Made by a program: the position numbers and the translations under genes
Shown here: positions 7,736 to 60,436 of the stretch, in pieces
Layout: each line of letters starts with the position of its first letter
Numbering within the stretch: the first letter of the stretch is position 1
Assembly: GCA_902596985.1 (NCBI GenBank)
Contig: CACJWR010000002.1
Span: 1 to 64,000 of the forward strand
DNA from: an uncultured Alphaproteobacteria bacterium
Lineage (GTDB): Bacteria; Pseudomonadota; Alphaproteobacteria; Rhodobacterales; Rhodobacteraceae
Reading direction: 5' to 3'
Length of the DNA stretch: 64,000 bases
Notes under the pieces: model-generated
What the model saw: the letters and a program-made list of their open reading frames with translations, nothing else
Told to the model about the DNA's origin: nothing
Databases searched by the model: none

Positions 7736-7809
7736 TGGAGCGGGTGATGGGAATCGAACCCACGTATTCAGCTTGGAAGGCTGCTGCTCTACCATTGAGC
7801 TACACCCGC
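7736..7809 (-). tRNA. tRNA-Gly (anticodon TCC)
   Basis: Reverse complement GCGGGTGTAGCTCAATGGTAGAGCAGCAGCCTTCCAAGCTGAATACGTGGGTTCGATTCCCATCACCCGCTCCA folds as a cloverleaf; encoded CCA. Confidence 0.96.
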
Positions 7810-7814
7810 ATTAG

Positions 7815-8474
7815 TTAAAACCTGTATATTACACCAGCGTACGTGGTATTACCCTTTAGAACGACAGCAGAACCAGCTGCATTTTTGGTTTCTGTGGACT
7901 TATAACCAAGATTCAAACCTAATCTTGAGTTTAAATTGTATACAAACCTTGCATCCATTGTAGTCACTTTTTGCTTTCTATCTTCCGTTTTATAGCTAAA
8001 AATTAAACTACTACCTCGCGCAATACCCAAGTTTATCTTAGTTCCATAAGTGTAAAACTTGCCGTAATTATCTGTGAAGCTTCCAACAAATGCTTTGAGC
8101 CCCAATGAGGGTGAAGCAATGTTGTATGAGAAGCCTAGAGAAGTTGTGGCATCACTAACAGTTGCAACTTTTATCTGAGATGACATGACATACACACCAA
8201 TATTTGGATAAACGCTGTATGTTATTGAACCTTCGTTATTGCTTAACACCTGATTATCAAATTTTCCATCGCTCATACTTGCACTAAAACTTATCGAAGT
8301 AGCCAATTGGCCATCAAGATGTATTACAGCTCCATCGCCATTATATTTTGTTCCTGAATTATCATAACTGAAAGAAGCATAAGATATTCCTGAGCTAATA
8401 CTAGCTTGTGAGAAGGCTGCCGCCGTACTAACTAATAATGCAACCAAAATCATTAATGGGTTTAATTTTTTCAT
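7815..8474 (-). CDS. putative outer-membrane beta-barrel (porin-like) protein
   Basis: Signal peptide 'MKKLNPLMILVALLVSTAAAFSQA', alternating beta-strand pattern and C-terminal aromatic 'YAGVIYRF'. Start refined from 8486 to 8474. Confidence 0.65.
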   Translation of the reverse strand: MKKLNPLMILVALLVSTAAAFSQASISSGISYASFSYDNSGTKYNGDGAVIHLDGQLATSISFSASMSDGKFDNQVLSNNEGSITYSVYPNIGVYVMSSQIKVATVSDATTSLGFSYNIASPSLGLKAFVGSFTDNYGKFYTYGTKINLGIARGSSLIFSYKTEDRKQKVTTMDARFVYNLNSRLGLNLGYKSTETKNAAGSAVVLKGNTTYAGVIYRF

Positions 8475-8525
8475 TCTGAGCTCCACAAATTTATTTTCAA
8501 TACATATTAAAATTACTGTCTAACA

Positions 8526-9197
8526 TCAAGATTTATCTTCATAGATATTAATTAAATCTGTAAAGGCTTCTATTTTAAAAGCAGCGCTCTCGCCCTTCGC
8601 TAATTTATACATACTGCCGTGGCCATATCTACAAAAAATAAAATCTACTTTGGCATTTTTGGCTGCGTCTGCGTCTGTATTTGTATCACCAACAAAAAAA
8701 ACGTCTTCAGGCTCTTTATTAAGTCTATATATCGCCTCCAAGAGAGGCTTAGGATCTGGTTTTGACACACCGACAGTATCTGATCCAATAAAAGAATCTC
8801 TAAAGAAATCAATCAATTCTAGTCTTTTCAAAAGTTCCCGCGCATGTTTTTCCGGTTTGTTTGTGCAAAGTCCTAGTCTTACACCCATTAAATGAAGTTT
8901 TGAAAGAGTGTCGAATACTCCATCATAACTACGCGACGCTTTGTCTAGCACTTTATTATAACTGTTAAGGTACAGCTGATAGTAGTCTTTTAATGATTTG
9001 TCGTTGAAAGTAATACCCTCTTCTTTTAATCCGTAACGCAGTATTGCTCTTCCACCTTGAATCGCAATTTGCAAGCCACTAAAACCCTTAAGCCTCGTTG
9101 ACCAGCCCTGGCTTTCAAACACTAGATTTCCAGCATCAAGCATATCGTATTTGGTATCTACTAGCGTCCCATCTAGGTCAAATACTAACGCTTTCAT
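8526..9197 (-). CDS. HAD-family hydrolase, phosphoglycolate phosphatase-like
   Basis: 'VFDLDGTLVDT', 'GLCTNKPEKH', 'FVGDTNTDADAAKNAKV'. Confidence 0.9.
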   Translation of the reverse strand: MKALVFDLDGTLVDTKYDMLDAGNLVFESQGWSTRLKGFSGLQIAIQGGRAILRYGLKEEGITFNDKSLKDYYQLYLNSYNKVLDKASRSYDGVFDTLSKLHLMGVRLGLCTNKPEKHARELLKRLELIDFFRDSFIGSDTVGVSKPDPKPLLEAIYRLNKEPEDVFFVGDTNTDADAAKNAKVDFIFCRYGHGSMYKLAKGESAAFKIEAFTDLINIYEDKS

Positions 9198-11736: not shown

Positions 11737-11813
11737 GGCGGAGTAGCTCAGGCGGTTAGAGCAGAGGAATCATAATCCTTGTGTCGGGGGTTCAAGTCCC
11801 TCCTCCGCTACCA
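11737..11813 (+). tRNA. tRNA-Met (anticodon CAT, elongator-like)
   Basis: GGCGGAGTAGCTCAGGCGGTTAGAGCAGAGGAATCATAATCCTTGTGTCGGGGGTTCAAGTCCCTCCTCCGCTACCA cloverleaf with encoded CCA. Confidence 0.96.
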
Positions 11814-20730: not shown

Positions 20731-21291
20731 ATGACTGATACCATTCATAGCAACACTGCTTTATTTTTGGACCGAGATGGTGTAATAAATGTTGATTATG
20801 GTTATGTTTGGCAAACTGAAAAATTAAAACTCAAACCTGGTATCACTAGGTTACTGAAGTATTTTACTGCTATAGTCGATTTCATAATCGTAGTTTCAAA
20901 CCAGTCTGGAATTGGTCGTGGAATGTATACAATAGACGATTGGAATTTATTCAACTCTGAAATTCAAAGAATACTAACCTTATCTGGAGTTTCTATCGAT
21001 AAATTTTACTGTTGTCCTCATTTACCATCAATTAATCCTCCATGCGATTGTAGAAAGCCCAAAAGTGGTATGATAATGCATGCAAAGCAGGAATTCAAAA
21101 TAGACTTGAAACGTTCAATTCTGATTGGTGATAGGCAAAGTGATATCCAAGCTGCTATGAAAGCAGGACTGAATAGAGCATATCTTCTATCTAGTAGTGA
21201 CGACCCACAATTTTCTGATCATGGAAAAATCGATTTTTATGCGGTTAAACAACTTAGTGAAATAGTATCTATAGAAGAAGGTCGACAGTAG
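20731..21291 (+). CDS. HAD-IIIA phosphatase, D-glycero-D-manno-heptose-1,7-bisphosphate phosphatase-like (GmhB)
   Basis: 'LFLDRDGVINVDYGYV', 'SNQSGIGRGMYT', Zn-loop 'CCPHLPSINPPCDCRKPKSGM', 'IGDRQSDIQAAMKAGL'. Confidence 0.88.
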   Translation: MTDTIHSNTALFLDRDGVINVDYGYVWQTEKLKLKPGITRLLKYFTAIVDFIIVVSNQSGIGRGMYTIDDWNLFNSEIQRILTLSGVSIDKFYCCPHLPSINPPCDCRKPKSGMIMHAKQEFKIDLKRSILIGDRQSDIQAAMKAGLNRAYLLSSSDDPQFSDHGKIDFYAVKQLSEIVSIEEGRQ

Positions 21292-21301
21292 GAAAAATAG
21301 T

Positions 21302-22825
21302 TTGTCACAAGAAAAAATATTTAAACTTGATACCCTAAAAAATCGTATTGCAAAGTCTAGAGAAAAAGGAGTGACTGTTGGGCTATGCCATGGAACCTTT
21401 GATTTGCTCCATGTAGGACACATAAAACATTTTCAGGAAGCAAAATCTAAATGTGATTTGTTGGTGGTAACAGTGACGCCCGATAGGCATATAAACAAAG
21501 GCCCCGGAAGACCTGTTTTTAGTGAAAATTTAAGGACGGAAGCTATTTCTGCTTTGGAGTGTGTAGACCTAGTTGCGATTAATAACTGGCCTACAGCAAT
21601 TGAATTGATAGGCATGTTAAAACCAAACTTTTATATTAAAGGTATAGACTATACCGATATCGAAAAAGACCACTCTGGTAATATTAAATTAGAAAAAAAT
21701 GCGATTGAGAAGCAAGGTGGTGAATTAATTATTACCTCAAGCCAAAAGTTCAGCTCTTCAAACATTATTTTGCGTACGTTGTCTAACTTAGGTGAAAAAC
21801 AGATTCAATTTATTGATAATTTAAAAGCAGAAACAAGTTTGGATGATTTTTTTGAGATGTTTCAAAATATTTCAAAAACTGAAATTTCTCTTATTGGAGA
21901 AACTATAATTGATGAATATGTTTTTTGCGAAACAATCGGAAAATCTGGAAAAGATCCCATGTTAGTAAACAGGATTATTGAGATTGAGAAATTTCTAGGT
22001 GGAATTGGTGCTATAGCTAAAATATGCTCAGATTTTGTTTCAAAAATTGATCTAATTTCATACCTGGGAGAAAATTGTGGTGAAATAGATTTTATACAGA
22101 GCCAAATGCCGAAGAATACATGCTTTTCCTATTTTAGGAAAAAATCATCACCGACAATAAAGAAGACACGCTATTTAAATGATTATACAAAACAAAAGAT
22201 GATAGGTTTTTACGATTTAAATGATGAACCAATTAGTGAAAATGACGAAAAAAAACTTAACTCTATAACTTTCGAAAAGAGTGACTTGCAAGACGTTGTG
22301 ATTGAAATCGATTATGGCCATGGACTGATATCGCCGAATTTCCAAAAGCTATTGAGAAAAAGAGCAAAGTTTTTAGCTGCAAACTCTCAAGTAAATTCTT
22401 TTAATGCAAAATTTCGAGACTTAAATATTTATAAAGACCTAGATCTTCTTTGCATGAATGAGGACGAACTACGCGCTCACTACCGCTCTCGAAAATCACC
22501 ACTCCAAAATCTAATGCAACAATTGAAAGTCGACTTAGGTTGTAAAAACTTGATAATAACGAAGGGTGCTCATGGATCAATAGGTATTAACTCAGATGGG
22601 TTGATCATCGAATGCCCTGCTTATGCTGAAAAAGTAATAGATCGTATTGGGTCCGGTGATGCATATCTAGCTGCTTCTGCAATAGCTTTAAGTTTGGGTT
22701 CTTCGCTGGCAGTTTCAATGTTTTTTGCTTCAGTTGTGGCCGGCGCTGTAGTAAGCTCTATGGGCACTGGTCAATCGGGGCTAAAGCAGTATTCATGGAA
22801 GGCCATAGAAGCGTATTTAAAGTAG
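21302..22825 (+). CDS. fused nucleotidyltransferase (N-term) - PfkB kinase (C-term), domain-permuted HldE/RfaE-like protein
   Basis: N-term 'GLCHGTFDLLHVGHIKHFQEAKSKCDLLVV' (cytidylyltransferase-like); C-term PfkB features 'FLGGIGAIAKICSDF' and 'DRIGSGDAYLAASAIAL'. Order is reversed relative to canonical HldE at 39638. Confidence 0.85.
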   Translation: MSQEKIFKLDTLKNRIAKSREKGVTVGLCHGTFDLLHVGHIKHFQEAKSKCDLLVVTVTPDRHINKGPGRPVFSENLRTEAISALECVDLVAINNWPTAIELIGMLKPNFYIKGIDYTDIEKDHSGNIKLEKNAIEKQGGELIITSSQKFSSSNIILRTLSNLGEKQIQFIDNLKAETSLDDFFEMFQNISKTEISLIGETIIDEYVFCETIGKSGKDPMLVNRIIEIEKFLGGIGAIAKICSDFVSKIDLISYLGENCGEIDFIQSQMPKNTCFSYFRKKSSPTIKKTRYLNDYTKQKMIGFYDLNDEPISENDEKKLNSITFEKSDLQDVVIEIDYGHGLISPNFQKLLRKRAKFLAANSQVNSFNAKFRDLNIYKDLDLLCMNEDELRAHYRSRKSPLQNLMQQLKVDLGCKNLIITKGAHGSIGINSDGLIIECPAYAEKVIDRIGSGDAYLAASAIALSLGSSLAVSMFFASVVAGAVVSSMGTGQSGLKQYSWKAIEAYLK

Positions 22826-22833
22826 GGGCTAAA

Positions 22834-23397
22834 ATGGAAAAACAATTTTTAAAGACGTACTTTCAAGAATTTGAAAAAGCGGTGACGCCCTCGGAGATCG
22901 TTTTAGATCAGATAATTCAAACAAAGAAAATTTTAATGGAAATGTCTCATCTAGGAAAAAAAGCAGTAGTTTTAGGAAATGGAGGTAGTGCTGCGATGGC
23001 AAGCCATATGGCCGTTGATTTAACAAAAAATGCTTCAACTCGGTCTGTCAATTTCAATGAGGCAGATTTACTAACGTGCTTTTCGAATGACTATGGTTAT
23101 GAATTAGCATATGCTCAAGCAATAAAATTTTATGGTGATGAAGGTGATGTTCTTATTGCAATATCAAGCAGTGGTACGTCAGAAAACATTCTTAAAGCTG
23201 TTAACGCGGCTCGAAAGGCAAATTTTGGATCAATAATAACTTTCTCCGGTATGGATGAAGGCAATCCACTATCAAGCATGGGCGATATAAATTTTTGGGT
23301 TAACAGTCATGCCTACAATATAATTGAAAACACACACCAAGTTTGGATGTTGAGTGTGGTTGACTTAATAATTGGCAAATCGGAATATAGCACTTGA
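22834..23397 (+). CDS. SIS-domain phosphoheptose isomerase-like (GmhA)
   Basis: 'AVVLGNGGSAAMASHMAVDLTKN', 'DVLIAISSSGTSENILKAV'. Start refined to ATG 22834 to remove overlap. Confidence 0.87.
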   Translation: MEKQFLKTYFQEFEKAVTPSEIVLDQIIQTKKILMEMSHLGKKAVVLGNGGSAAMASHMAVDLTKNASTRSVNFNEADLLTCFSNDYGYELAYAQAIKFYGDEGDVLIAISSSGTSENILKAVNAARKANFGSIITFSGMDEGNPLSSMGDINFWVNSHAYNIIENTHQVWMLSVVDLIIGKSEYST

Positions 23398-23414
23398 GGA
23401 AATTTTTAAATTAA

Positions 23415-24410
23415 ATGTCAAAGAAGGTACTAGTAATTGGTTCAAATTCGTTTTCTGGGTCTTATGTTGTCAAAAGCTATTTGGAAAATGGGTTTGACGT
23501 TTTAGGTATAAGTAGAAGCCGAGAAAATAACCCTCAGTTTCTCAAATATCGATCTGGAGAAGTTAGCTTAAATAATTTTAAATTTGAGCAAGTCGATCTT
23601 AATAACGACTTTGAACACCTGGTTATGCTAACTGATAAATTTAAGCCAAATATAGTAATAAACTTTGCAGCTCAAGGCATGGTAGCTGAGAGCTGGAACA
23701 AGCCGTTGGATTGGTTTCAGACCAATGTAATGGCACAGATAAAGATAGTAGAATTTTTAAAGAGTTCTGATTATCTTGATCGCTTTATTCATTTTACTAC
23801 TCCTGAAGTCTATGGCTCAACTACTGATTGGATTTCAGAGGATACACCATTTAACCCCTCTACACCGTATGCAACTTCGCGAGCATCATTTGATTTTCAT
23901 TTGAGAAACGTTTTTGATGCATATGAGTTTCCTGTAATGTTTACTAGAGCAGCAAATGTTTACGGAGAAGGCCAACAAATTTACCGGATAATTCCTCGCG
24001 CTATGCTTTCATGCCTCTTAGAGGAAAAATTTCCTTTACATGGTGGGGGTGGTTCGGAACGTGCTTTTGTTCACATGAAAGACGTTTCTAATGCCGTATT
24101 AAAAATTTCAAAAAATGGTTCACTTGGACATACCTACCATATTTCGACAGACGAAACTCTTACTATAATTCAATTAGTTGAAAAAATAGGCCGTTTTTAT
24201 GGGAAACAAATCGAAGAATTTGCGGATATAGTAGATGAGAGATTGGGAAAAGACCAATCATATAAATTATCATCGAAGAAGTTGAATTCTGAATTAGGAT
24301 GGTACCCATCAGTAAATTTATCGGAGGGCATCAGCGAGGTAGACGCATGGTTGCGCAAATATTTGGATATATTTAAGAAAACTGACCGAGAGTACAGGCA
24401 TAAAAAATGA
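23415..24410 (+). CDS. NAD-dependent epimerase/dehydratase (SDR, 4,6-dehydratase-like)
   Basis: 'VIGSNSFSGSYVVKSYL', 'FTTPEVYGSTTDW', 'PYATSRASFDFH', 'GGGGSERAFVHMKDV'. Confidence 0.85.
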   Translation: MSKKVLVIGSNSFSGSYVVKSYLENGFDVLGISRSRENNPQFLKYRSGEVSLNNFKFEQVDLNNDFEHLVMLTDKFKPNIVINFAAQGMVAESWNKPLDWFQTNVMAQIKIVEFLKSSDYLDRFIHFTTPEVYGSTTDWISEDTPFNPSTPYATSRASFDFHLRNVFDAYEFPVMFTRAANVYGEGQQIYRIIPRAMLSCLLEEKFPLHGGGGSERAFVHMKDVSNAVLKISKNGSLGHTYHISTDETLTIIQLVEKIGRFYGKQIEEFADIVDERLGKDQSYKLSSKKLNSELGWYPSVNLSEGISEVDAWLRKYLDIFKKTDREYRHKK

Positions 24411-25360
24411 AAATTCTTATTACAGGTGGAAGTGGCTACGTAGGCTCCCTATTGATACCTACTATTTTAGACAAGACTGAATGGGAAGTTGTCACTTATG
24501 ACGCACAATGGTTTGGTCAAAATTTAAGTGAGCATCCAAGGTTAAAGATAATAAAAGGTGATATAAGAAATATTGATGAAGGTGTTTTTAAGGAGATTGA
24601 CAAAGTTATCCATTTGGCAAATATAGCTAATGACCCTGCTGTCGAACTAGACCCAACTTTGTCATGGGAAGTAAACGTTTTGGCGTCCTACCGCATGGCA
24701 GAGCTCTCTGCAAAGGCAGGAGTGAAAGATTTTATATTTGCGAGTTCGGGCAGCGTGTATGGTATAAAAGACGATGAAAAAGTAACCGAAGATTTGGAAT
24801 TAGTTCCTATTTCAGTTTACAACAAGACCAAAATGATTGCTGAGCGTGTATTTTACAGTTATCGCGACACGTTTAGGGTCATTTCAATTAGACCTGCGAC
24901 TGTTTGTGGATTGTCAGAAAGACTGAGACTAGATGTGAGCGTAAATATGCTGACTCATCAAGCCATGAAGAATGGGGTAATTACCGTTTTTGGAGGTGAT
25001 CAGGTTAGACCAAATATCCATATCAAAGATTTAGTCTCTGTATATTTACACTTTCTTGAAAATTCTAGTATTCCAAGCGGTTTTTATAACGCTGGTTTTG
25101 AGAACCTTTCAATAAAGTCAATAGCTCAAATAATAGCGGAATTAACTGGTTCAAAAATTACCATAACGCCTTCAAATGATCCTAGATCTTATCGGCAGGA
25201 TTCTACAAAATTGATTAACACAGGGTTTAAACCGGCATTTGGTGTTAAAGATGCAATCAATGAAATTGTGGCTCAACATCAACGAGGTGAGTTAATAGAG
25301 AAAGAGACCTTCTATACAGTTAAAACAATGAAAAAACTTATTCTTAGGGGATTGATTTGA
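24407..25360 (+). CDS. NAD-dependent epimerase/dehydratase (SDR)
   Basis: 'ILITGGSGYVGSLL', 'VIHLANIANDPAVELDP', 'YNKTKMIAERVF'. Confidence 0.87.
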   Translation: MKILITGGSGYVGSLLIPTILDKTEWEVVTYDAQWFGQNLSEHPRLKIIKGDIRNIDEGVFKEIDKVIHLANIANDPAVELDPTLSWEVNVLASYRMAELSAKAGVKDFIFASSGSVYGIKDDEKVTEDLELVPISVYNKTKMIAERVFYSYRDTFRVISIRPATVCGLSERLRLDVSVNMLTHQAMKNGVITVFGGDQVRPNIHIKDLVSVYLHFLENSSIPSGFYNAGFENLSIKSIAQIIAELTGSKITITPSNDPRSYRQDSTKLINTGFKPAFGVKDAINEIVAQHQRGELIEKETFYTVKTMKKLILRGLI

Positions 25361-26148
25361 GTGATTTTAAGACAGCGAGAGATTTTGGGCGCTTCAAAAT
25401 CATCGAAATAACGCGAGCAGCAAAAGCTGCACATTTGGCTTCTGCGCTATCTTGTTACGATATGATCTACTACCTTTATAATCATTATATGAAAATAAAT
25501 GCAATTGACGACCCCAAACGTGACCGTTTTATATTGAGTAAAGGTCATGCTGCTGCCGCTCTATATGTTTCTATGTATCAAGCCTCTCTCCTTAGTGCCG
25601 AAGAATTAAATTCATTTGGTTCAATAGGCTCAATATTAGAAGAACATCCATCACCAAAACTGAACGGCATTGAGACTGCAAGTGGTTCATTGGGCCATGG
25701 GCTAGCCGTTGCTGTTGGTATGGCGCTTGCCAATAAGAATAAAAACATAAAAAACAATAATATCGTTTTAATGGGAGATGGAGAACAAAATGAAGGCTCA
25801 GTTTGGGAGGCAGCACTTTTTGCATCGGCAAATAGCCTAGATAATCTTACAGGAATAATTGATTATAACAAATGGCAGGCTACAGATCGGAGTAATGAAG
25901 TGCTAGCCTTAAACCCACTTTCATCAAAATGGGAAAGTTTTGGTTGGCAGTCTCTCGAGATCAATGGTCATGACCTTAATGCTTTTCGGGATGCTTTAAA
26001 CTTTAAGGCTACAGGAAAACCTAAAATCATTGTGTCACATACTATTAAGGGCAAGGGTATTTCATTCATGGAGGATGATAATAATTGGCACTATAGATTA
26101 CCTAATGAAGAAGAAATGTTGGTAATTGCGCGTGAGCTTAACCAATGA
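25357..26148 (+). CDS. transketolase, N-terminal (ThDP-binding) subunit
   Basis: 'FILSKGHAAAALYVSMY', 'ETASGSLGHGLAVAVGMALA', 'LMGDGEQNEGSVWEAALFASANSLDNLTGIIDYNKWQ'; TTG start overlapping the upstream stop. Confidence 0.92.
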   Translation: MSDFKTARDFGRFKIIEITRAAKAAHLASALSCYDMIYYLYNHYMKINAIDDPKRDRFILSKGHAAAALYVSMYQASLLSAEELNSFGSIGSILEEHPSPKLNGIETASGSLGHGLAVAVGMALANKNKNIKNNNIVLMGDGEQNEGSVWEAALFASANSLDNLTGIIDYNKWQATDRSNEVLALNPLSSKWESFGWQSLEINGHDLNAFRDALNFKATGKPKIIVSHTIKGKGISFMEDDNNWHYRLPNEEEMLVIARELNQ

Positions 26149-27059
26149 GAAACGCATTTGCCAAAGAAGTAACTGAATTAGCCAAGGATAATACTAAAAT
26201 TGTATTATTGGCAGGCGATATAGGTAACAGGTTATTTGATAGATTTAAAGAGCAAAGTCCACAACGATTTTATAATTGTGGGATTGCAGAGGCAGCAATG
26301 ACAGGAATTGCGGCTGGTATGGCAACTGCTGGCTACACCCCGATAACTTACACTATCACTCCGTTTAACACTCTTAGGTGTCTTGAGCAAATAAAATTGG
26401 ACATTTGCTATCCAAACCTGCCTGTGACAATAGTGGGAACTGGTGCTGGACTTTCTTACGCCGGTTTGGGAGCTACGCATCATTCATTAGATGACATAGG
26501 AGTGATGAGGACATTACCAAACCTACAAATATTGGTACCTGGCGATGCTATTGAAGTATCAGCTTGCCTCCGTGCAGCTGTTGAAAGTGGCAGGCCCACA
26601 TATATTAGGCTTGGAAAGAAAGGTGAACCCATTATTCACGATAAAGATTTCACTTATAAAATTGGGAGAGTAATTCCCATAAAAAGTGGTGCTCGACATT
26701 TAATTATCAGCGTAGGTAATATGCTGGGAGAGAGTATGGTCGCAGTTGAAAAGGCTAAAGATAAATATGGTTTGGATACTGAAATAGTTAGTATGGGATC
26801 GGTGTACCCTTTGGATAAGAAATTTCTAAAAAATGCGTTCAATAAATTTGAACGAATATTAATTGTAGAGGAACATGGTTTTGTTGGGGGTGCTGGATCT
26901 GCTGTACTAGAATATGCATATGAGGAGAAACTTGATACTAAAAAGTTAACCTCAATAGCTTGTGCAAAAAGTTTCTTAAGTGGAGTTGGTAGTCAAGAAA
27001 ATGCACGTCGAAAATTGGGCCTGGATTCAGACAGTATTTTAGCTAAGCTGACTATATAA
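26145..27059 (+). CDS. transketolase, C-terminal subunit
   Basis: 'FYNCGIAEAAMTGIAAGMATAGYTPITYTITPF', 'GLGATHHSLDDIGVMRTLPNL'; overlaps the N-subunit stop by 4 nt. Confidence 0.92.
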   Translation: MRNAFAKEVTELAKDNTKIVLLAGDIGNRLFDRFKEQSPQRFYNCGIAEAAMTGIAAGMATAGYTPITYTITPFNTLRCLEQIKLDICYPNLPVTIVGTGAGLSYAGLGATHHSLDDIGVMRTLPNLQILVPGDAIEVSACLRAAVESGRPTYIRLGKKGEPIIHDKDFTYKIGRVIPIKSGARHLIISVGNMLGESMVAVEKAKDKYGLDTEIVSMGSVYPLDKKFLKNAFNKFERILIVEEHGFVGGAGSAVLEYAYEEKLDTKKLTSIACAKSFLSGVGSQENARRKLGLDSDSILAKLTI

Positions 27060-27060
27060 A

Positions 27061-27666
27061 ATGATAATAGGTATCGACTTTGATAATACAATAATTAATT
27101 ATGACTCTGTTTTCGCCTCAGTGGCACTCGAATATGGTACGATTACTGATCCAGGCCTAAAGAGTAAAAATGATGTTAAAAAATATCTTATAACATCAGA
27201 TAGAGAAGCAGACTGGACAGAATTACAAGGCAAAGTGTACGGTACCCACATAATGAAAGCGACGCCATTTGATGATGTAATTCAGACATTTTCTTGGCTT
27301 CTTGCCCAGGGACATAAATTAAAAATAATAAGTCATAAAACTAAGTACCCTTTTATTGGAGACCGTGTGAAATTACGGGAAGCTGCGATGAGTTGGCTAA
27401 AATCGAATGATATCGTTGGGAAAAGTGGTAATAAAATTCATATTAGCGACATTTATTTTTGTGATACGGTCAATTCAAAGGTTGAACAAATAACCAAACA
27501 AAAATGTGACATTTTTATTGATGATTTAACAAGCGTACTAGACCAAATAAATAGCTCGATATTGAAAATATTATTTGATCCAAATTCGATGTCTTTTGAA
27601 AAAAATAAACAATCCTTCACTGCCTCAAGTTGGAAACAGATTGGATCATATATAAATGCACTCTAA
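27061..27666 (+). CDS. HAD-like hydrolase
   Basis: N-terminal 'IIGIDFDNTIINYDSVF' DxD motif; 'IFIDDLTSVLDQI' late motif. Confidence 0.65.
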   Translation: MIIGIDFDNTIINYDSVFASVALEYGTITDPGLKSKNDVKKYLITSDREADWTELQGKVYGTHIMKATPFDDVIQTFSWLLAQGHKLKIISHKTKYPFIGDRVKLREAAMSWLKSNDIVGKSGNKIHISDIYFCDTVNSKVEQITKQKCDIFIDDLTSVLDQINSSILKILFDPNSMSFEKNKQSFTASSWKQIGSYINAL

Positions 27667-28624
27667 AATGTACTTTGAGGTGCTTCAATCCGCCGGTTTA
27701 ATGCAAAATAGCGATCAAATATTAAAGGTAACTAAGCTATCAGGTGGAAAAAATAGTAGCGTAAAGCTAATTGAATTAAAGTCAAACAAATTTGTTCTTA
27801 AACAATATCCAGCTGAGGTAAAATCTGAGCGATTAGATGTTGAATACAAGTTCTTATCTTGGGTTAACAAAATGGGAATAAATAATGTTCCAAAGGCTAT
27901 TACAAAAAATTTTAAATACAATATTGGAGTATATTCTTACATTGAAGGAACCCAAATTCAAAGGGCAACACCAGCTGGGTTAAATGCATGTGTAAAATTT
28001 ATTAACGAACTGAATGTTTGTAATTTAAAGTCGCCACCTGAAATTGCTCACGCAGCGGATTGCTTCTTTTCCTACAACGAGTTGCTTGCAAGTATTCAAA
28101 AAAGGTTCGAAAGGCTATTTAATTTTGAAAATTCTCAATGTGAGGAATATAGGGCTGCTTTAAGATATTTTTTGCAAATCTTCGAAAAATTAACTAAAAA
28201 AAATAAAGAGTTTTTCAAAGAACTTGATAGATATATTAGAGAAATGAAAGTTATAATTTCGCCATCTGACTTTGGGATGCATAATATGCTTCAAAAGAAA
28301 AATGATTATTTTTTTTTAGATTTCGAATATGCAGGTTATGATAATGCTTTAAAACTAATTTGTGACTTTGCTTGTCAGCCTAGAATCCCTATAGATACCC
28401 AGTACTTCGAAAAATTTGTAACCGAAATAAATGAAAAAATTACAAGACATAATGAAATTTTTAAGATTGTTGGGAAATTTATGCCAATTTTTAGATTAAA
28501 ATGGTCACTAATTATTTTGGGAATTGTAAACAAGAATAGCTTTAAATTAGTGTCTGATGAAGATCTTACGAGAAAACAAATAGAAAAATCGAAAACCTAT
28601 CTGTTTAAAAATATGGGAATGTAA
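27656..28624 (+). CDS. aminoglycoside phosphotransferase (APH)-like kinase
   Basis: 'SGGKNSSVKLIEL...FVLKQYP' and catalytic region 'ISPSDFGMHNMLQKKNDYFFLDFEYAGYDN'. Confidence 0.75.
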   Translation: MHSKMYFEVLQSAGLMQNSDQILKVTKLSGGKNSSVKLIELKSNKFVLKQYPAEVKSERLDVEYKFLSWVNKMGINNVPKAITKNFKYNIGVYSYIEGTQIQRATPAGLNACVKFINELNVCNLKSPPEIAHAADCFFSYNELLASIQKRFERLFNFENSQCEEYRAALRYFLQIFEKLTKKNKEFFKELDRYIREMKVIISPSDFGMHNMLQKKNDYFFLDFEYAGYDNALKLICDFACQPRIPIDTQYFEKFVTEINEKITRHNEIFKIVGKFMPIFRLKWSLIILGIVNKNSFKLVSDEDLTRKQIEKSKTYLFKNMGM

Positions 28625-28626
28625 AA

Positions 28627-29295
28627 ATGTATGTTGATTTTATGAGTATGGTCCACAAAACTCAGAAACGTGATTACCTAGGGAGAGTAAATGATCCAGA
28701 GTTCCCTAAGGCCAAAGCAGCAGAGTTAGCGCAAAAGTTTGATTTTGACTACTGGGATGGAGACCGCCGAGTAAACTACGGTGGATATAAATATATTCCA
28801 GGTAGATGGACCCCAATTGCAAAAAAAATGATCGAACATTATAATCTTAAGGATGGGTGTAAAGTTTTGGATGTGGGATGTGGAAAAGGATTTCTTATTT
28901 ACGAATTTAAACTTTTGTTGCCAAAATCGCAGGTTTTCGGACTTGATAGATCTCATTACGCGATTAAAAACGCTAAATCCGAAGTAAGCAAGTCAATCAT
29001 ACACGGTTGTGCATCATCCCTTCCCTTCAGTAGCAATACATTTGACTTAGTCATTTCTATCAATACTCTGCACTGCTTGCAAAACTTTCGACTATATAAT
29101 GCGCTTAAAGAGATTGAACGCGTGTCAAAAGGGAGCAAATATATATGTGTAGAGTCATTCAGAAACGAAGCAGAGAAAGCAAATTTACTATACTGGCAGG
29201 TTACCTGTGAAATGTTCTGTAGCCCAGAGGCATGGGAGTGGTGGTTTACTCATACAGGTTATAACGGCGACCACAGTTTTATATTTTTTGAATAA
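28627..29295 (+). CDS. class I SAM-dependent methyltransferase
   Basis: Motif I 'KVLDVGCGKGFLIYEFK', 'FGLDRSHYAIKNAK', 'FDLVISINTLHCLQN'. Confidence 0.88.
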   Translation: MYVDFMSMVHKTQKRDYLGRVNDPEFPKAKAAELAQKFDFDYWDGDRRVNYGGYKYIPGRWTPIAKKMIEHYNLKDGCKVLDVGCGKGFLIYEFKLLLPKSQVFGLDRSHYAIKNAKSEVSKSIIHGCASSLPFSSNTFDLVISINTLHCLQNFRLYNALKEIERVSKGSKYICVESFRNEAEKANLLYWQVTCEMFCSPEAWEWWFTHTGYNGDHSFIFFE

Positions 29296-29307
29296 TGATC
29301 TAAATAA

Positions 29308-30357
29308 ATGAGTCAATACGCAAAAGCCGCAATACTTGTACGTCAAAACACGGATTTAGTGATAGACGAAATTAAGTTGCCAGATAAGCTAGGAGTAGGG
29401 CAAGTTATTGTTAAGTTAGATTATAGTGGTATATGCGGTTCCCAGATAGGTGAAATAAAAGGCGTCAAGGGACACGATCCTTACCTTCCACATCTACTAG
29501 GACATGAGGGATCAGGGTCTATAACTGCCATTGGGCCAGGCGTGACAACCGTAAGAATTGGTGACAAAGTTGTTCTGCATTGGCGCAAAGGTAACGGTAT
29601 TGAGGCTAAACCTCCCAAATATGGTTGGGGTAAAAAAATTATAAATGCAGGGTTAGTTACAACATTCAATACACACGCTGTTATATCTGAAAATAGAGTA
29701 ACCACGGTCCCAAGAGACTTGGACTCAAAAGCCGCTGCACTTTTCGGATGTGCTATCACTACTGGCTTTGGCGTTATCGTAAATGATGCGGAACTTAAGA
29801 TTGGTGACAATATCGTAGTTTTAGGCGCTGGTGGAGTTGGCTTGAATGTAATTCAAGGAGCCAAATTAGCTGGAGCAAATAAAATAGTGGCTGTTGATTT
29901 ATTCGATAACAGGTTGGAAATATCCAAGAAATTTGGTGCAAATGTAACTATTAATGCTAAAATTTGTAAAGATTTAAAGTCTTCAATCGTAGCTGCGATG
30001 GCAGATTTAAATATAGATATCATTGTTGATAATACTGGTTCACCAGAAATGATAAAGATAGCTTATGAACTAGTAAAAAGTAATGGGAAGGTAATTTTAG
30101 TAGGAGTTCCTAAAAAAGGAGCTGAAACAAGTATATACACGCTACCCTTACACTTTGGAAAAAAGCTCCATGGCAGTGAAGGAGGGTCTACGAGCCCAGA
30201 GGTGGATATACCCAAATACTCCAGTTTGCTCCAAGCAGGAAAACTTGAATATAACGCATTAATATCATCAGTGAGGCCTTTAGACGACGTCAATGATGCA
30301 ATAAGAGATATGGTTTCTGGGAAAGAGTCTGGCAGGATTTTGCTAAAATTAGATTAG
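29308..30357 (+). CDS. zinc-binding alcohol dehydrogenase (MDR superfamily)
   Basis: 'YSGICGSQIGEIKG', 'LLGHEGSGSITAIGPGVT', 'VVLGAGGVGLNVIQGAKLAGANKIVAVD'. Confidence 0.9.
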   Translation: MSQYAKAAILVRQNTDLVIDEIKLPDKLGVGQVIVKLDYSGICGSQIGEIKGVKGHDPYLPHLLGHEGSGSITAIGPGVTTVRIGDKVVLHWRKGNGIEAKPPKYGWGKKIINAGLVTTFNTHAVISENRVTTVPRDLDSKAAALFGCAITTGFGVIVNDAELKIGDNIVVLGAGGVGLNVIQGAKLAGANKIVAVDLFDNRLEISKKFGANVTINAKICKDLKSSIVAAMADLNIDIIVDNTGSPEMIKIAYELVKSNGKVILVGVPKKGAETSIYTLPLHFGKKLHGSEGGSTSPEVDIPKYSSLLQAGKLEYNALISSVRPLDDVNDAIRDMVSGKESGRILLKLD

Positions 30358-31245: not shown

Positions 31246-32457
31246 TTGACTTCCCTTCAATTTTCTGGTTGCAAATGTTGCGGTTTCCATCCCCTTAAGA
31301 AACTAATTTCTTTTGAAAATCAACCTATTTCAACACAGTATAGGGTTACACTCGATGAAGAATATAAAACTTATACATTAAGCCTAGCAACGTGTGAGCA
31401 TTGTGGGATTCTCCAGCTGTGTGACTATATCCCCGAAAATAAATTATTAACTCCACCACCTTGGATCAGCTATAATGAACCAGAGGGGCATTTGGATGAC
31501 ACTACTCGAGAATTAGCACCTTACATTGAAGATAAGAAATCTAAAATCAGAGGTTTAAGTTATAAAGATTTAAGCACGATAGAAAGGTTAAATAAAATCG
31601 GTTTTGAGATGGGTGCATTGCTGGATTTTAATTTTGCAGAAAAATTTGATGCCCCATTAAATATTGAGCTGGTACAAAATTTGGTTACTCCCAAGAATTG
31701 TGCTTTATTAAACGCCAGAGAAGAACGAGCAGATGTACTGTTAGTCCGGCACGTTCTAGAGCACACATTTGACACGAAAAATTTTCTAGCAGGCATAAAG
31801 AGTTTAGTAAAACCAAATGGCGTTGTCTTATTTGAAATTCCCGATTGCTCAAAACAAATTGAGAATTTTGACTATACCTGTTTATGGGAAGACCACACTC
31901 TTTATTTAGTGCCCGAAACTTTTAGATGGGTTTTAACAAGGCACGGGTTCACAGTAAAAAAGCTCTTAAACTTTGAATATTCAACGGAAAATGCATTAGT
32001 TGCAATCTGTAAATTAGATGAAGAAAATCCGAGTGTTAATCAAAAATACGAAGCAGTTACAGACCAATACTATTCTGCATTAATAAAAAAGTTTGTTGAT
32101 AACTTCGAAAACATAAAAACAAAAATTCAAGATTTTATTTTAAACAAACGTAAATCTGGTAAAGTCACAATTTTTGGTGCTGGGCATCTATCTGGTACTT
32201 TCATTCATATATTTGAAATTGAAAAACTAATAGACTTTGTAGTTGATGATGACCCAAATAAAGTTGGGAAATATATGCCTGGGAGCAAAATACAAATTAA
32301 GCCATCTTCTGCTCTTGCTAGAGAGAAAATAAAAACTTGTTTGTTGAGCTTAAGCCCGGAAAGTGAACAAAAACTTCTGCGCAACTCTCAAACCTTATTT
32401 CAAAACATTGAGACCATTAAATCAATTTTCCCTAAAAAAGAAAATTCTATATTCTGA
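31246..32457 (+). CDS. sugar C-methyltransferase-like protein (zinc-binding N-domain, SAM-MT core, C-terminal domain)
   Basis: N-term 'FSGCKCCGFHPLKKLISFENQPIS' plus 'CEHCGILQL' Zn-type Cys pairs; 'VLLVRHVLEHTFDTKNFLAGIKSLVKPNGVVLFEIPD'; C-term 'VTIFGAGHLSGTFIHIFEIEKLIDFVVDDDPNKVGKYMPG'. Confidence 0.78.
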   Translation: MTSLQFSGCKCCGFHPLKKLISFENQPISTQYRVTLDEEYKTYTLSLATCEHCGILQLCDYIPENKLLTPPPWISYNEPEGHLDDTTRELAPYIEDKKSKIRGLSYKDLSTIERLNKIGFEMGALLDFNFAEKFDAPLNIELVQNLVTPKNCALLNAREERADVLLVRHVLEHTFDTKNFLAGIKSLVKPNGVVLFEIPDCSKQIENFDYTCLWEDHTLYLVPETFRWVLTRHGFTVKKLLNFEYSTENALVAICKLDEENPSVNQKYEAVTDQYYSALIKKFVDNFENIKTKIQDFILNKRKSGKVTIFGAGHLSGTFIHIFEIEKLIDFVVDDDPNKVGKYMPGSKIQIKPSSALAREKIKTCLLSLSPESEQKLLRNSQTLFQNIETIKSIFPKKENSIF

Positions 32458-32466
32458 AGTATGTAG

Positions 32467-32988
32467 ATGAAAATAGAGTCTAAATCTGTTATCCGTTTCA
32501 ACGAGGGGATTTCTTGTGTCAATAAAAAAAACGTGAGTGTAATTAAGGATTTTTCTGTTAAAACAAAATACAGACGAAGTAGGATATGTTTTCATAGTGA
32601 TAATAATGATACCCTTCACGAGATGCATATCTGTGTCAAAGCTGGTTCTTACATTAGGCCTGCAAAGCACCTAAAAAAGATAGAGTCTTTACTGGTTATC
32701 GATGGACTAGCAAAATTGTTCCTATTTTCAGATTGTGGGCACGTACAAGAGATCATAGAGCTAGGGCCATATGGTTCGAATCGGATCCATTATTACCGCT
32801 TGAATGAACCAATATTTCATACTTTGTTTGTGGAAACAAATACATTCATATTCCATGAAGTAGCAGAGGGCCCTTTCATCCCTGAAGAAACAGAATTAGC
32901 TCCATGGTCCCCTTCAGGTGATAGTGAATTAGAAAATGCACACTTTAATGAATTTTTAAAAAATGCGGAATTAGGGGCAAAATTTTGA
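32467..32988 (+). CDS. WbuC-like cupin-fold metalloprotein
   Basis: 'RSRICFHSDNNDTLHEMHICVKAGSYIRPAKHLKKIESLLVIDGLAKLFLF' resembles the WbuC family; 'FHEVAEGPFIPEETELAPWSP'. Confidence 0.75.
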   Translation: MKIESKSVIRFNEGISCVNKKNVSVIKDFSVKTKYRRSRICFHSDNNDTLHEMHICVKAGSYIRPAKHLKKIESLLVIDGLAKLFLFSDCGHVQEIIELGPYGSNRIHYYRLNEPIFHTLFVETNTFIFHEVAEGPFIPEETELAPWSPSGDSELENAHFNEFLKNAELGAKF

Positions 32989-34671: not shown

Positions 34672-35904
34672 TTGGATTCAAGAGGACTTTGCAGATTTAA
34701 TAAACGTCAAAACAATACTCCAAAGATAGGTGTTAGACCAATAGTGGCAGACTTCAAAAAAACATCGAAAATAAGCTTTTGTGTTGCAGTTTGGGGAAGA
34801 AAATTCACTGACAACTTTTTAAATTATTCGTTGAATAGCCTTCTGGAATACAACAATATTCCAAGCTTATCGAAAAAATCTAGAATAAAATTTAAGATAT
34901 ATACTACCAACTCTGATTTAAGCTATATTTCACAATCGGTAATAATATCTCAACTTTTACAATATGCTGAGATCGAATACTTTTTAATTTCTGGCGTAAA
35001 CACTTTAGGCAATTATATCAGTATGAACCACTGTCATCGTGATTTCATCTCACGGAGCAAAGGGGACATTTTATTTTTTATATGTCCCGATATAATTTTT
35101 TCTGATGGCGCAATTATGAAGATATATAAAAAGTTATCAAAGAAAATAAAGGTTGTCTGTATTTTCACTCCCCGGCTAAACTTGGAAACATTTCTTCCAA
35201 AATATAAAGCTGCGTTATTGCAAAATGACTTAAGATCGCTAGACTCTGAAGCACTTTTAAGAATGTCCTGCGACCATTTTCATTCAGAGACAAAAAGTAT
35301 GATTTTGGATGAAGAATTGGATGAAACAGTATACTCAGGAGGCTACTTTTATAAAAAAAGATCTGGGCTAATAGGAAGTCAATTTCACTATTTTCCTGTC
35401 TGTATAAAGCACAAAGGTCAACTACCTTTACCTGATATTACAGTCGATAATGATTATCTGGGTAAATTGGTTAATTCAATAGAAGAAATTTATGTTTTTG
35501 AAAATGCCAAAGATTGCTGCATCATTGACATATCTACAGAGAAAAGCAAGGGACAGTTTATAAAAGAAAAAAGATCAGTAAAAAATGTAGCTAGTTGGGC
35601 AGTTGAAAATACTAATAGGATACATTTAGATTTATTTTTAAAAACATACTTATTCTTAGAAGAAAGTCCTAAGTTGAATTCCAAAATTTACTATAAAGTC
35701 AAAAAATTTCGAAAGGCAGTATTGAAAGAAATAGAGAGTATAAGACGTAGGCCATCGAACCATAAGCCTAATAGCTTAGTAAAACGCTGGTCCGAGAGAG
35801 TTAAGAACAATACCGTTAAGTCAGCAATTTTTAAAATTAAAAGGTACATATATTTACTAATCTTCAAAAGACTTAGAATAAAAGAAAAAAGTATTCAAAA
35901 ATAG
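34672..35904 (+). CDS. putative glycosyltransferase-like protein of unassigned family
   Basis: 410 aa ORF inside the locus with a GT-A-like layout ('FCVAVWGRKFTDNFLNYSLNSLLEYNNIP', 'SKGDILFFICPDIIFSDGAI'); TTG start uncertain. Confidence 0.45.
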   Translation: MDSRGLCRFNKRQNNTPKIGVRPIVADFKKTSKISFCVAVWGRKFTDNFLNYSLNSLLEYNNIPSLSKKSRIKFKIYTTNSDLSYISQSVIISQLLQYAEIEYFLISGVNTLGNYISMNHCHRDFISRSKGDILFFICPDIIFSDGAIMKIYKKLSKKIKVVCIFTPRLNLETFLPKYKAALLQNDLRSLDSEALLRMSCDHFHSETKSMILDEELDETVYSGGYFYKKRSGLIGSQFHYFPVCIKHKGQLPLPDITVDNDYLGKLVNSIEEIYVFENAKDCCIIDISTEKSKGQFIKEKRSVKNVASWAVENTNRIHLDLFLKTYLFLEESPKLNSKIYYKVKKFRKAVLKEIESIRRRPSNHKPNSLVKRWSERVKNNTVKSAIFKIKRYIYLLIFKRLRIKEKSIQK

Positions 35905-37272: not shown

Positions 37273-38598
37273 ATGGAAATTGCCTTAGAATTGACCTTTA
37301 TAATTGCAGTGATAGTATTTTTATATGCTGTCGGATCAATGCATCTTTGTTTAATTAATACAAAAAATTTGAGTCTGAAAACAACGCTCACGATTTACAC
37401 ACTTTTTTTCACTGTGCACGTTTTTTGCACAACTCTCTTACACATTTATGCGGGTCAACTTAACCCTTTACCTTTTTGGCAGTATGGTGTTGGTCCCGGT
37501 GGAGATGAAATTAATTTTTTTAATTTCTTGAATTTTTATCATGAACGTTTTGAAACGGGCGACTTTTCGTATACTATTATAGACCGACACGCAACTGACT
37601 TTTCATTATGGGTCTACCTACTTGCGTTGCTATCCCACTTGATACCAGTTGCAGAGTTCAGTCACTTTTTTGTTCCGAAACTGTTAAGTAGTTCGTTTGT
37701 CAGTCTCGTATGTGTTTATACAATATTATTCACACGCAGCCTCTCAAAACAGTTTAACTTTAAATTGTTACTTATATTATTACTGGTTACACCAGACTTC
37801 TATCATCTAGCAGGTGGCATATTTAGAGCACCAATGATCGCATATTGTTTCATCTTAGTACTATTTCTGGCTCACGAAATGAAAGAAAGTCCCCGATGGT
37901 TACATCTAATATTGTTTGTACCGGTATTTTTATTCCTGCTAATTTGGGTTATTCCAAAGATTAAAATTTTTCTGAGTCTACTATTGGTAGGGTTGATTTT
38001 TGCATGCTTGATCTACAGAGCCAAGATTCTGTTTTTTGCTCTTGGTGCTTTGGCTGGTTTTCTTTTAATATTCAACCTAGAGTTTGTCTTTGATACCTTA
38101 GAAATATTTGGCGATGGATTTGGATTAGGCTATAGAATTTTATTGGAATTTGAAAAGGGGGCTGCAGCAGACTCGTTGGCATATTCTATTAGTCAACACT
38201 CTTTTCTTTTATTAATTTTAATAAACTTATTGCAATTTTTTATTTCGATTCCATTATGGTCTACCCTTATCGAGGGTGTCTACGGAGATGCAGAATCTTT
38301 ATTGGAGTTTTTAGTTTTTTGTAATAACCATATAATGATGGCCTTCCTTATACCTGGTATTTTAGATCTTAAATCTTATTTTAAAAAAAATTATATATGG
38401 ATTTTGTTTCCTGTCTTAATTTATTCAGTTGCAATGGCGACTTTCAGTACCGTTTTGATTAGATGGCGCTTACCCGTCATGTCTCTTATAGTGGTCGTTC
38501 TATCTATTGGTTTCAAATCTCGTTATAAAAAACTTAAAGTCCTCTATTTTATCGCGTTATCATTTTTATACTCAGCTTATTTTCTGATTAAAGGCTAA
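37273..38598 (+). CDS. polytopic membrane protein, candidate Wzy-type polymerase
   Basis: 441 aa, many hydrophobic helices, inside the polysaccharide locus between glycosyltransferases; no sequence-specific motif. Confidence 0.5.
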   Translation: MEIALELTFIIAVIVFLYAVGSMHLCLINTKNLSLKTTLTIYTLFFTVHVFCTTLLHIYAGQLNPLPFWQYGVGPGGDEINFFNFLNFYHERFETGDFSYTIIDRHATDFSLWVYLLALLSHLIPVAEFSHFFVPKLLSSSFVSLVCVYTILFTRSLSKQFNFKLLLILLLVTPDFYHLAGGIFRAPMIAYCFILVLFLAHEMKESPRWLHLILFVPVFLFLLIWVIPKIKIFLSLLLVGLIFACLIYRAKILFFALGALAGFLLIFNLEFVFDTLEIFGDGFGLGYRILLEFEKGAAADSLAYSISQHSFLLLILINLLQFFISIPLWSTLIEGVYGDAESLLEFLVFCNNHIMMAFLIPGILDLKSYFKKNYIWILFPVLIYSVAMATFSTVLIRWRLPVMSLIVVVLSIGFKSRYKKLKVLYFIALSFLYSAYFLIKG

Positions 38599-39637: not shown

Positions 39638-41062
39638 ATGAAACAAAAACCATATCTTTATAAGAATTTAAATATTCTCGTGGTTGGTGATATTATTTTA
39701 GATGAAACCATTTACGTCGAAGTTAACAGAATATCTCCAGAAGCCCCTGTATTGGTTGCCAACAAACTGGGAGGAAAAATTGAAGCTGGTGGGGCTGCTA
39801 ATGTAGCGCTCAACGTCGTTAATACAGGCGTAAAGTGTGGGCTTATGGGCTTTATTGGTGCAGAGAGTAAAGCATCTACTGTTATTAAACAGTTAAAAGA
39901 GTTTGGAGTAAAAGATTTGTTAATAAAGAAAAAGAATAGCTCTTCCATTCTCAAAACTAGAGTTACTGAAGCAAGTGCGCAGCTTATTAGACTTGACGAA
40001 GATACTAATTTTGATGAGTTTGCGGACGATATCATTGCACGATTGAGAAAGTATATTAAGAATTTTGATGCTGTAATCGTATCGGATTATGGGAAAGGTA
40101 CAGTTACCGAAAGTGTTTTTCGTGAAATAATTACTCTATCTAAACTTCACGGTTTCAAAATTATTGTTGACCCAAAAGGTGATCATGCAGAAAAATATAA
40201 AGGGGCAACAACTATTACACCTAACAAAAAAGAGTTTGAAATCTTCGTCGGGAAGGCAAATGGCTTTTGTGAAATGGCTAAAAAAGGTCAAAAACTAATG
40301 GAAAAACTTAATTTGGAATTTCTTCTAGTCACAATGTCCGAGGAGGGTATGCTACTGATAACTCCAAACGGCGAGTATGAGCACATTCCAACGGCTGCAA
40401 AAGAGGTTTACGATGTAACGGGAGCAGGCGATACTGTTGTTGCCATTTTTTCTGCCGTTTTTCTCGCGAGCGGTAATCTCGTATACTCCGCAAAAATTGC
40501 AAACTCTGCTGCTGGTGTAGTTGTGGCTCGGAGAGGACCTGCAAAAATTTCAAAATTAGATTTTGCAAGAATTACGGAGGTAGCTGGATCAAGTGTTCTA
40601 TCCTTATCCGACCTGGATAAGTTTAGGTCTGATTTAGGTAAGATAGTTATGACAAATGGCTGCTTTGATTTGCTTCACAGAGGACATATTGAATACTTAA
40701 ATCGTGCAAAAACTTTGGGAGACACATTAATAGTAGCTTTGAATTCAGATGAGTCGGTTAAGGCTTTAAAAGGCCATGATAGACCAGTAAATACCTTGGA
40801 AGATCGAGCTCTGGTTTTAAAAAATTTAAAGGCGGTAGACTTTGTTATAACATTTGATGAGCTTACTCCTCTTAAGTTGTATCGGAAAATAGTTCCAGAT
40901 GTTCTAGTTAAAGGTGGGGATTATGAATTAGATCAAATAGTTGGTCGAGAAATTGTTGAAGAAAATGGTGGGACAGTCGTAAGTATTAAATTTATTGATA
41001 ATTACTCTACCACTAAGATGCTTAGAAAAATCATTAATATTGATGGAGACAGTAGGCCATGA
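39638..41062 (+). CDS. hldE: bifunctional D-glycero-beta-D-manno-heptose-7-phosphate kinase / heptose-1-phosphate adenylyltransferase (canonical order)
   Basis: N-term PfkB ('VVGDIILDETIYVEVNRISPEAPVLV', 'GGAANVALNV', 'VTGAGDTVVAIF') followed by 'IVMTNGCFDLLHRGHIEYLNRAKTLGDTLIVALNSDESVK'. Confidence 0.93.
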   Translation: MKQKPYLYKNLNILVVGDIILDETIYVEVNRISPEAPVLVANKLGGKIEAGGAANVALNVVNTGVKCGLMGFIGAESKASTVIKQLKEFGVKDLLIKKKNSSSILKTRVTEASAQLIRLDEDTNFDEFADDIIARLRKYIKNFDAVIVSDYGKGTVTESVFREIITLSKLHGFKIIVDPKGDHAEKYKGATTITPNKKEFEIFVGKANGFCEMAKKGQKLMEKLNLEFLLVTMSEEGMLLITPNGEYEHIPTAAKEVYDVTGAGDTVVAIFSAVFLASGNLVYSAKIANSAAGVVVARRGPAKISKLDFARITEVAGSSVLSLSDLDKFRSDLGKIVMTNGCFDLLHRGHIEYLNRAKTLGDTLIVALNSDESVKALKGHDRPVNTLEDRALVLKNLKAVDFVITFDELTPLKLYRKIVPDVLVKGGDYELDQIVGREIVEENGGTVVSIKFIDNYSTTKMLRKIINIDGDSRP

Positions 41063-46745: not shown

Positions 46746-46750
46746 TTGTC

Positions 46751-48117: not shown

Positions 48118-48300
48118 AAGTGACATATTCCAATTAATTTTTTCCTTTGAATATGATTGTTTTACCCGTAGATAAAGATTATACATTTTTAAAACCAATT
48201 TCTAGTCGAGATGCCGATTATCTTGACTTAAAAACAAGGCTATGTTCGGTTTATGCCTATTATTTGATGAGTGGGTTGATATCTATAAATGAGGTTTGGA

Positions 48301-60426: not shown

Positions 60427-60436
60427 TTTTTTCCTA

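Follow-up and report, generated by a model that had tools for sequence, protein, structure and literature searches.

We analyzed a 64,000-nucleotide stretch of DNA (the window) from a 75%-complete metagenome-assembled genome of an uncultured Alphaproteobacteria bacterium of the Rhodobacteraceae (GenBank assembly GCA_902596985.1, contig CACJWR010000002.1, positions 1 to 64,000 of the forward strand). In a polysaccharide region it carries an operon that combines relatives of heptose genes with two short-chain dehydrogenases/reductases (SDR1 and SDR2) and a transketolase (TK) split into two genes, TK-N and TK-C. This operon is homologous to the gdh cluster of photosynthetic Bradyrhizobium, which is needed for the O-antigen of bradyrhizose, a ten-carbon surface sugar of this nitrogen-fixing bacterium (PMC4743980).

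The first-pass annotation had named seven genes from the sequence and placed the end of the block at TK-C. The seven open reading frames (ORFs) lie at the claimed positions with 4-nt overlaps at SDR1/SDR2, SDR2/TK-N and TK-N/TK-C, and Pfam and NCBIfam family searches uphold the gene names. The permuted domain order of the HldE-like protein is likewise upheld, with CTP_transf_like at residues 29-155 and PfkB at 193-492. The block is, however, longer than proposed: a HAD phosphatase gene begins 1 nt past TK-C and is followed by genes for an APH-fold kinase, a methyltransferase (MT1) and a Zn-dependent alcohol dehydrogenase (Zn-ADH), at intervals of between -11 and +12 nt. All four are part of the conserved unit. 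The operon reads as follows:

20731..21291, + strand: gmhB-like HAD-IIIA phosphatase of the heptose-1,7-bisphosphate 7-phosphatase family (NCBIfam PRK08942 E 3e-42 and GmhB_yaeD E 1.5e-41, both under the curated cut-off)
21302..22825, + strand: permuted HldE, N-terminal nucleotidyltransferase (HxGH) and C-terminal PfkB sugar kinase (GxGD) (Pfam/NCBIfam; motifs kept across loci)
22834..23397, + strand: GmhA-like SIS-domain isomerase, metal site altered (E65 to D, Q172 to E, H180 to L) (NCBIfam; alignment to E. coli GmhA)
23415..24410, + strand: SDR1, RmlB/GMD-like, with TPE and YxxxR motifs, ortholog of Bradyrhizobium gdh (49% identity; family search and alignment)
24407..25360, + strand: SDR2, GalE-like extended SDR (nearest solved chain 6vo6; 38-60% identity in cassette loci)
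25357..26148, + strand: TK-N, thiamine diphosphate (ThDP)-binding half of the split TK (PF00456 E 2e-32; equivalents of H26, H66, H100, D155, N185 and H261 kept)
26145..27059, + strand: TK-C, pyrimidine-binding and C-terminal half (catalytic E49 and H112 kept; H461 to G100, D469 to L108, S385 to R29, R520 to K158)
27061..27666, + strand: HAD-family phosphatase (catalytic motifs all invariant among 24 homologs)
27656..28624, + strand: APH/choline-kinase-fold small-molecule kinase (PF01636; invariant SxSDxGxHN and DFEY motifs; fold match to LicA and N-acetylhexosamine kinase)
28627..29295, + strand: MT1, class I S-adenosylmethionine methyltransferase (46-65% identity in most clade-A loci, defined below, that have MT1)
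29308..30357, + strand: Zn-ADH (PF08240/PF00107; 38-56% identity in cassette loci)

The gmhA-like ORF spans 22795-23397, with the ATG at 22834 as the likelier start. A promoter and terminator scan gave counts not above those in shuffled sequence.

Judged by its sequences, the block is not a textbook heptose pathway; its affiliation by homology is with the gdh cluster. The isomerase, kinase/nucleotidyltransferase and phosphatase of the canonical ADP-heptose pathway (GmhA, HldE, GmhB, HldD) all have homologs here, but the HldE is permuted and the GmhA metal site altered. The GmhA-like protein scores 85 bits against a curated cut-off of 209, and its positions equivalent to H61, E65, Q172 and H180 hold H, D, E and L. 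The changes of E65 to D and Q172 to E recur in 20 of 20 aligned cassette GmhAs, which keep H61; the window copy additionally lacks H180. The permuted HldE has both HxGH and GxGD, with scores under the curated cut-offs. A canonical HldE and an HldD, the latter above its curated cut-off, are encoded as separate genes at 39638-42027 and lie with a heptosyltransferase-like gene approximately 11-15 kb downstream of TK-C. The permuted HldE is thus a second, different copy. The cassette GmhA and GmhB are the only ones found in the 75%-complete genome. Fold searches returned generic HAD phosphatases without a substrate hint for the HAD protein, and choline and N-acetylhexosamine kinases among many matches for the APH protein. 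We take 6vo6, the best solved match of SDR2, to be Campylobacter Cj1427, a GDP-heptose 4-dehydrogenase.

Homology with the Bradyrhizobium gdh cluster

Mutants of Bradyrhizobium ORS285 in gdh lack the bradyrhizose O-antigen (PMC4743980, Busset 2016). The gdh cluster was described as eleven mostly sugar-modifying genes located approximately 44 kb from rfaL, at a time when the other genes for bradyrhizose synthesis were unknown, and the main text of that paper never mentions a transketolase (PMC4743980). A list of genes specific to photosynthetic Bradyrhizobium includes BRADO5164 (sugar kinase/cytidylyltransferase), BRADO5165 (nucleotidyltransferase), BRADO5167 (phosphoheptose isomerase), BRADO5168 (dTDP-glucose dehydratase) and BRADO5173 (aminoglycoside phosphotransferase family) (PMC3899966).

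We located the cluster using the published ORS285 gdh and rfaL primers as probes. In one genome (G805) both gdh primers and both rfaL primers match with 0 mismatches, approximately 45 kb apart. In another (G660) the order is HldE-like, nucleotidyltransferase, SDR2, GmhA, SDR1/gdh, TK-N, TK-C, ADH, HAD, APH and MT1, a set of eleven consistent with the BRADO numbers (BRADO5164-5174 of ORS278, numbering inferred); in G805 gdh is surrounded by the same eleven kinds of gene. The window shares 10 of the 11; it lacks the separate nucleotidyltransferase, has gmhB in addition, and differs in gene order. Identities between the gdh cluster and the window are 49% for SDR1, the equivalent of gdh, 50% for TK-C, 52% for TK-N, 52% for SDR2 and 52-53% for MT1. 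SDR1 and gdh also share sequence peculiarities: in both, TPE replaces the usual T-D/S-E, and both have YxxxR. The TKs of the window and of the gdh cluster, the most diagnostic enzymes of the set, are orthologous: they fall in one clade (ultrafast bootstrap (UFBoot) 100) and carry the same pocket signature, described below. The TK-C type is found in 16 of 271 Bradyrhizobium genomes, including all eight that have the gdh primer site.

The gene order had initially been taken as one not recognizable from any described pathway. Nearly the same set is in fact the Bradyrhizobium O-antigen-precursor cluster, although that cluster has been reported by mutant phenotype only. Our search of the literature on gene clusters with TK, heptose and O-antigen genes returned nothing relevant besides the Bradyrhizobium gene list. 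The existence of the cluster in Bradyrhizobium is already published, whereas its TK-containing, phylum-spanning composition, the altered TK pocket and the carbon scheme proposed below were not found in the literature searched.

The split transketolase and its partners

A scan of genome contigs with TK-C yielded 33 loci. The window TK belongs to a clade of 21 loci (clade A; SH-like support 1.0, UFBoot 100) that includes the Bradyrhizobium TKs; the 21 include 6 close Bradyrhizobium relatives, and in some cases the cluster runs off the contig. Clade-A TKs were aligned to E. coli TktA, whose numbering is used here. In the window TK the ThDP/Mg and proton-relay residues H26, H66, H100, D155, N185, H261, E411 and H473 are all conserved. 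The clade retains H26, H66, D155, E160, N185, H261, E411 and H473, with H100 in 20 of 23. In contrast, the pocket positions of a pentose-phosphate acceptor (S385, H461, D469, R520) read R, G, L and K in the window. Across clade A, H461 is Gly, D469 Leu and R520 Lys in all, and S385 is R/K except for N or M in two. Of these residues, H461, S385 and R520 bind the substrate phosphate, and D469 reads the C2 hydroxyl of the acceptor. A solved split TK from Carboxydothermus retains the original H and D, so the split alone does not explain the residue change. The genome also carries a second, full-length housekeeping transketolase (46.5% to E. coli TktA), and the cassette TK, as far as sequence tells, is not the housekeeping enzyme. 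The changed substrate-binding residues suggest that it would add a two-carbon branch to a sugar and would not serve ordinary metabolism.

These residues bear on the first of two ideas in the first-pass annotation, a local supply of sedoheptulose-7-phosphate. Under it, the split TK would make extra sedoheptulose-7-phosphate for GmhA, HldE and GmhB, and the SDRs would then give a modified but unbranched heptose. Relatives of all three heptose enzymes are indeed present, the cassette GmhA and GmhB being the genome's only detected copies. Nevertheless, the genome has a housekeeping transketolase, and with H461, D469, S385 and R520 all replaced, the split TK is without the residues for an ordinary phospho-aldose acceptor. 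Some TK loci of the clade moreover have HAD, APH, MT1 and ADH while gmhA and hldE went undetected in the stretch examined. We regard local supply as improbable.

The TK pair stands beside most of the HldE-like, GmhA-like, SDR1, SDR2, HAD, APH, MT1 and ADH genes, in varying order, across several phyla. The cassette records are labelled Omnitrophota, Planctomycetota, Elusimicrobia, Chthoniobacterales, Akkermansia, Desulfobacter, Azospirillum, Alphaproteobacteria, Pelagibacteraceae and Prochlorococcus. Gene presence was called at score thresholds of our choosing, and the loci were found by the window's own TK. Among 385 genomes of the class, the permuted HldE and the TK-C type occur together in 39, one alone in 21 and 14, and neither in 311 (odds ratio 41, p = 2e-26). 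This association is not chance. For 31 of the 58 HldE-like copies, a TK-C is located within 12 kb. The HAD gene accompanies 20 of the 21 clade-A TKs but 0 of the 27 split TKs that belong to neither clade A nor clade B, described below (p = 1e-12). In plasmid and phage collections only remote split TKs were found, the best plasmid match having 36% identity.

Such linkage also bears on whether the TK halves could be passengers of a polysaccharide locus with an unrelated role, the other genes making an ordinary 6-deoxy- or epimerized heptose. Sugar genes do accumulate in polysaccharide loci, and in many loci split TKs lack these partners. However, clade A keeps TK-N and TK-C together with their catalytic residues across phyla, and the co-occurrence with the HldE-like gene is strong. 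This explanation appears very improbable, even more so than local supply.

A separate TK lineage, clade B (10 loci), has mostly HldE-GmhA-SDR2-HAD-APH. The conserved set HldE-GmhA-SDR2-HAD-APH-TK-N-TK-C with this different lineage was seen in L080, L081, L083-L085, L089, L090 and L093 and in many genomes of the class; the position of GmhA differs in L089. Within clade A, two loci without a detected SDR2 have related genes directly before TK-N (L005:7333-8469 and L007 ~8108-9178), of which the L005 copy matches radical SAM families.

A proposed route to a branched sugar

With moderate confidence, we favor reading the operon as a sugar-nucleotide module, homologous to the bradyrhizose cluster, in which a nucleoside diphosphate (NDP)-heptose would be oxidized, the TK would add a C2 branch and later enzymes would complete a higher sugar that is branched or carbocyclic. 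In this scheme sedoheptulose-7-phosphate would become an NDP-heptose through GmhA, the kinase and nucleotidyltransferase domains of HldE, and a phosphatase, either GmhB or HAD or both. SDR2, possibly with SDR1, would oxidize this to a keto sugar, probably at C4. The split TK would then transfer a hydroxyacetyl (C2) unit from a ketose phosphate or hydroxypyruvate onto the ketone to form a C2-branched tertiary alcohol, and Zn-ADH and SDR1 would adjust the oxidation state. For bradyrhizose-type products, C7 would join the branch in an aldol reaction that forms a six-membered carbocycle (C4-C9). A methyltransferase would add one carbon, and the sum C7 + C2 + C1 would match bradyrhizose with its ten carbons.

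The bicyclic C10 sugar bradyrhizose forms its hemiacetals through O4, O5 or O9 (PMC9912281). Together with the fused six-membered carbocycle, these hemiacetals would place C9 on C4, with a C4-C9 ring and a tertiary alcohol at C4. A heptose (C1-C7) with a C2 unit at C4 that closes onto C7 would give exactly this ring. Bradyrhizose or a relative of it is thus the probable O-antigen sugar of the window organism; the homology to the gdh cluster is shown, the chemistry and the product are inferred.

The two-carbon branching that the first-pass annotation offered as its second idea is hence the better of the two, although the likeness it drew to avilamycin is inexact. Avilamycin-type branching uses a pyruvate-dehydrogenase-like enzyme. 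Closer by description are the TKs of miharamycin and amipurimycin, which are likewise encoded by split genes and proposed to transfer hydroxyacetyl onto a keto sugar to form a tertiary alcohol; these candidates all come from Streptomyces natural-product clusters (PMC12247030). According to this 2025 review, Streptomyces is the sole source of proposed ketone-accepting TKs, in vitro tests of them are lacking, and sugar branching in lipopolysaccharide (LPS) is credited to YerE-like enzymes (PMC12247030). It is established that enzymes of the YerE type (YerE/ErwE, yersiniose and erwiniose) use ThDP to branch nucleotide 4-keto sugars at C4 in LPS biosynthesis, but these enzymes belong to a different ThDP superfamily, the decarboxylases, and use 2-oxo acid donors such as pyruvate.

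The Coxiella burnetii genes CBU0674-CBU0678 were considered as well. They include a reversed-domain HldE (CBU0678), whose operon also contains two SDRs and lies near a phosphoheptose isomerase, and are required for full-length LPS, with their function given as unknown (PMC5843353). This virenose cluster shares the reversed HldE, two SDRs and GmhA with the window, but we rejected it as a direct counterpart as the literature searched mentions no transketolase there.

Several observations weigh against the proposed route. The TK signature is not peculiar to the cassette, since clade B and some further split TKs likewise have Gly for H461 and Leu for D469. The GmhA metal site is altered, and the window copy has also lost H180. 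HAD and APH have no step in the route, and MT1 can be called for neither C- nor O-methylation; the C7 + C2 + C1 count is a fit, not proof. The second cassette set is without SDR1 and ADH, so products vary. On the Bradyrhizobium side, the gdh mutation could be polar according to its authors (PMC4743980). In an ORS278-like locus (L103:5972-8218) the HldE-like nucleotidyltransferase domain lacks GPxRP and is followed by a separate sugar-1-phosphate nucleotidyltransferase, while the window domain looks intact; the type of NDP, and perhaps the substrate, would thus differ between the two. The HldE-like copy of a Prochlorococcus locus (L016) also lacks the GPxRP motif.

The chief competing explanation places the TK before activation. 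By analogy with lincosamide octose biosynthesis, the TK would add C2 to an unphosphorylated or unusual aldehyde to form an octulose or higher ketose, which APH would phosphorylate and GmhA, HldE and HAD would convert to an NDP-octose; the TK would then extend a chain linearly and not branch it. Such chain extension would account for APH beside HAD and TK as well as for the altered TK acceptor pocket and GmhA metal site, and C8 + C2 could also make C10. On the other hand, SDR2 resembles NDP-sugar 4-oxidases/epimerases, and the C4 tertiary alcohol deduced for bradyrhizose calls for a branching step. We therefore consider chain extension unlikely, and branching on the NDP-heptose remains our preferred reading.

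More broadly, and only tentatively, the cassette may represent a widespread surface-polysaccharide module of several phyla that makes carbocyclic or branched C9-C10 sugars from heptose via a ketone-accepting TK. It would then provide the route to bradyrhizose and the first TK-type branching enzyme in a cell-surface polysaccharide. The cassette links two open questions, the genes for bradyrhizose synthesis and ketone-accepting TKs, and points to a specific route, open to experimental test, by which an unusual plant-silent sugar would be made. The many TK-N/TK-C pairs are candidate ketone-accepting biocatalysts, and the module is present far beyond Bradyrhizobium, including in Prochlorococcus and Pelagibacteraceae genomes.

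Two genes downstream of Zn-ADH are possible accessories:

31246..32457, + strand: NovU/TylCIII-type C-methyltransferase (PF08421/PF13489/PF08484; 29% identity to a gene beside the ORS278-like cluster, L103)
32467..32988, + strand: cupin-like protein (tblastn to L103, 38% identity beside the ORS278-like cluster; named by general likeness only, the Pfam search giving no match)

Elsewhere in the polysaccharide region, ORFs at 34672-35904, 37273-38598 and 42024-43385 (410, 441 and 453 aa) have no Pfam match at E 0.001. An amidino-sugar module at 45588-48117 comprises a WbuX-type N-acetyl sugar amidotransferase with HisH-like and HisF-like partners. At 48289-50421 lies a 710-aa fusion of a Zn-alcohol dehydrogenase and a GFO/IDH/MocA oxidoreductase, with a 4-nt overlap to a heparinase II/III-like gene (50418-52226). 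Just 5' of the polysaccharide locus, tRNA-Gly (7736-7809) and tRNA-Met (11737-11813) may mark an island boundary, and the region is flanked by minus-strand homogentisate degradation genes at 57872-63033 (HgmA, fumarylacetoacetase, a metallo-beta-lactamase fold protein and an FAD monooxygenase).

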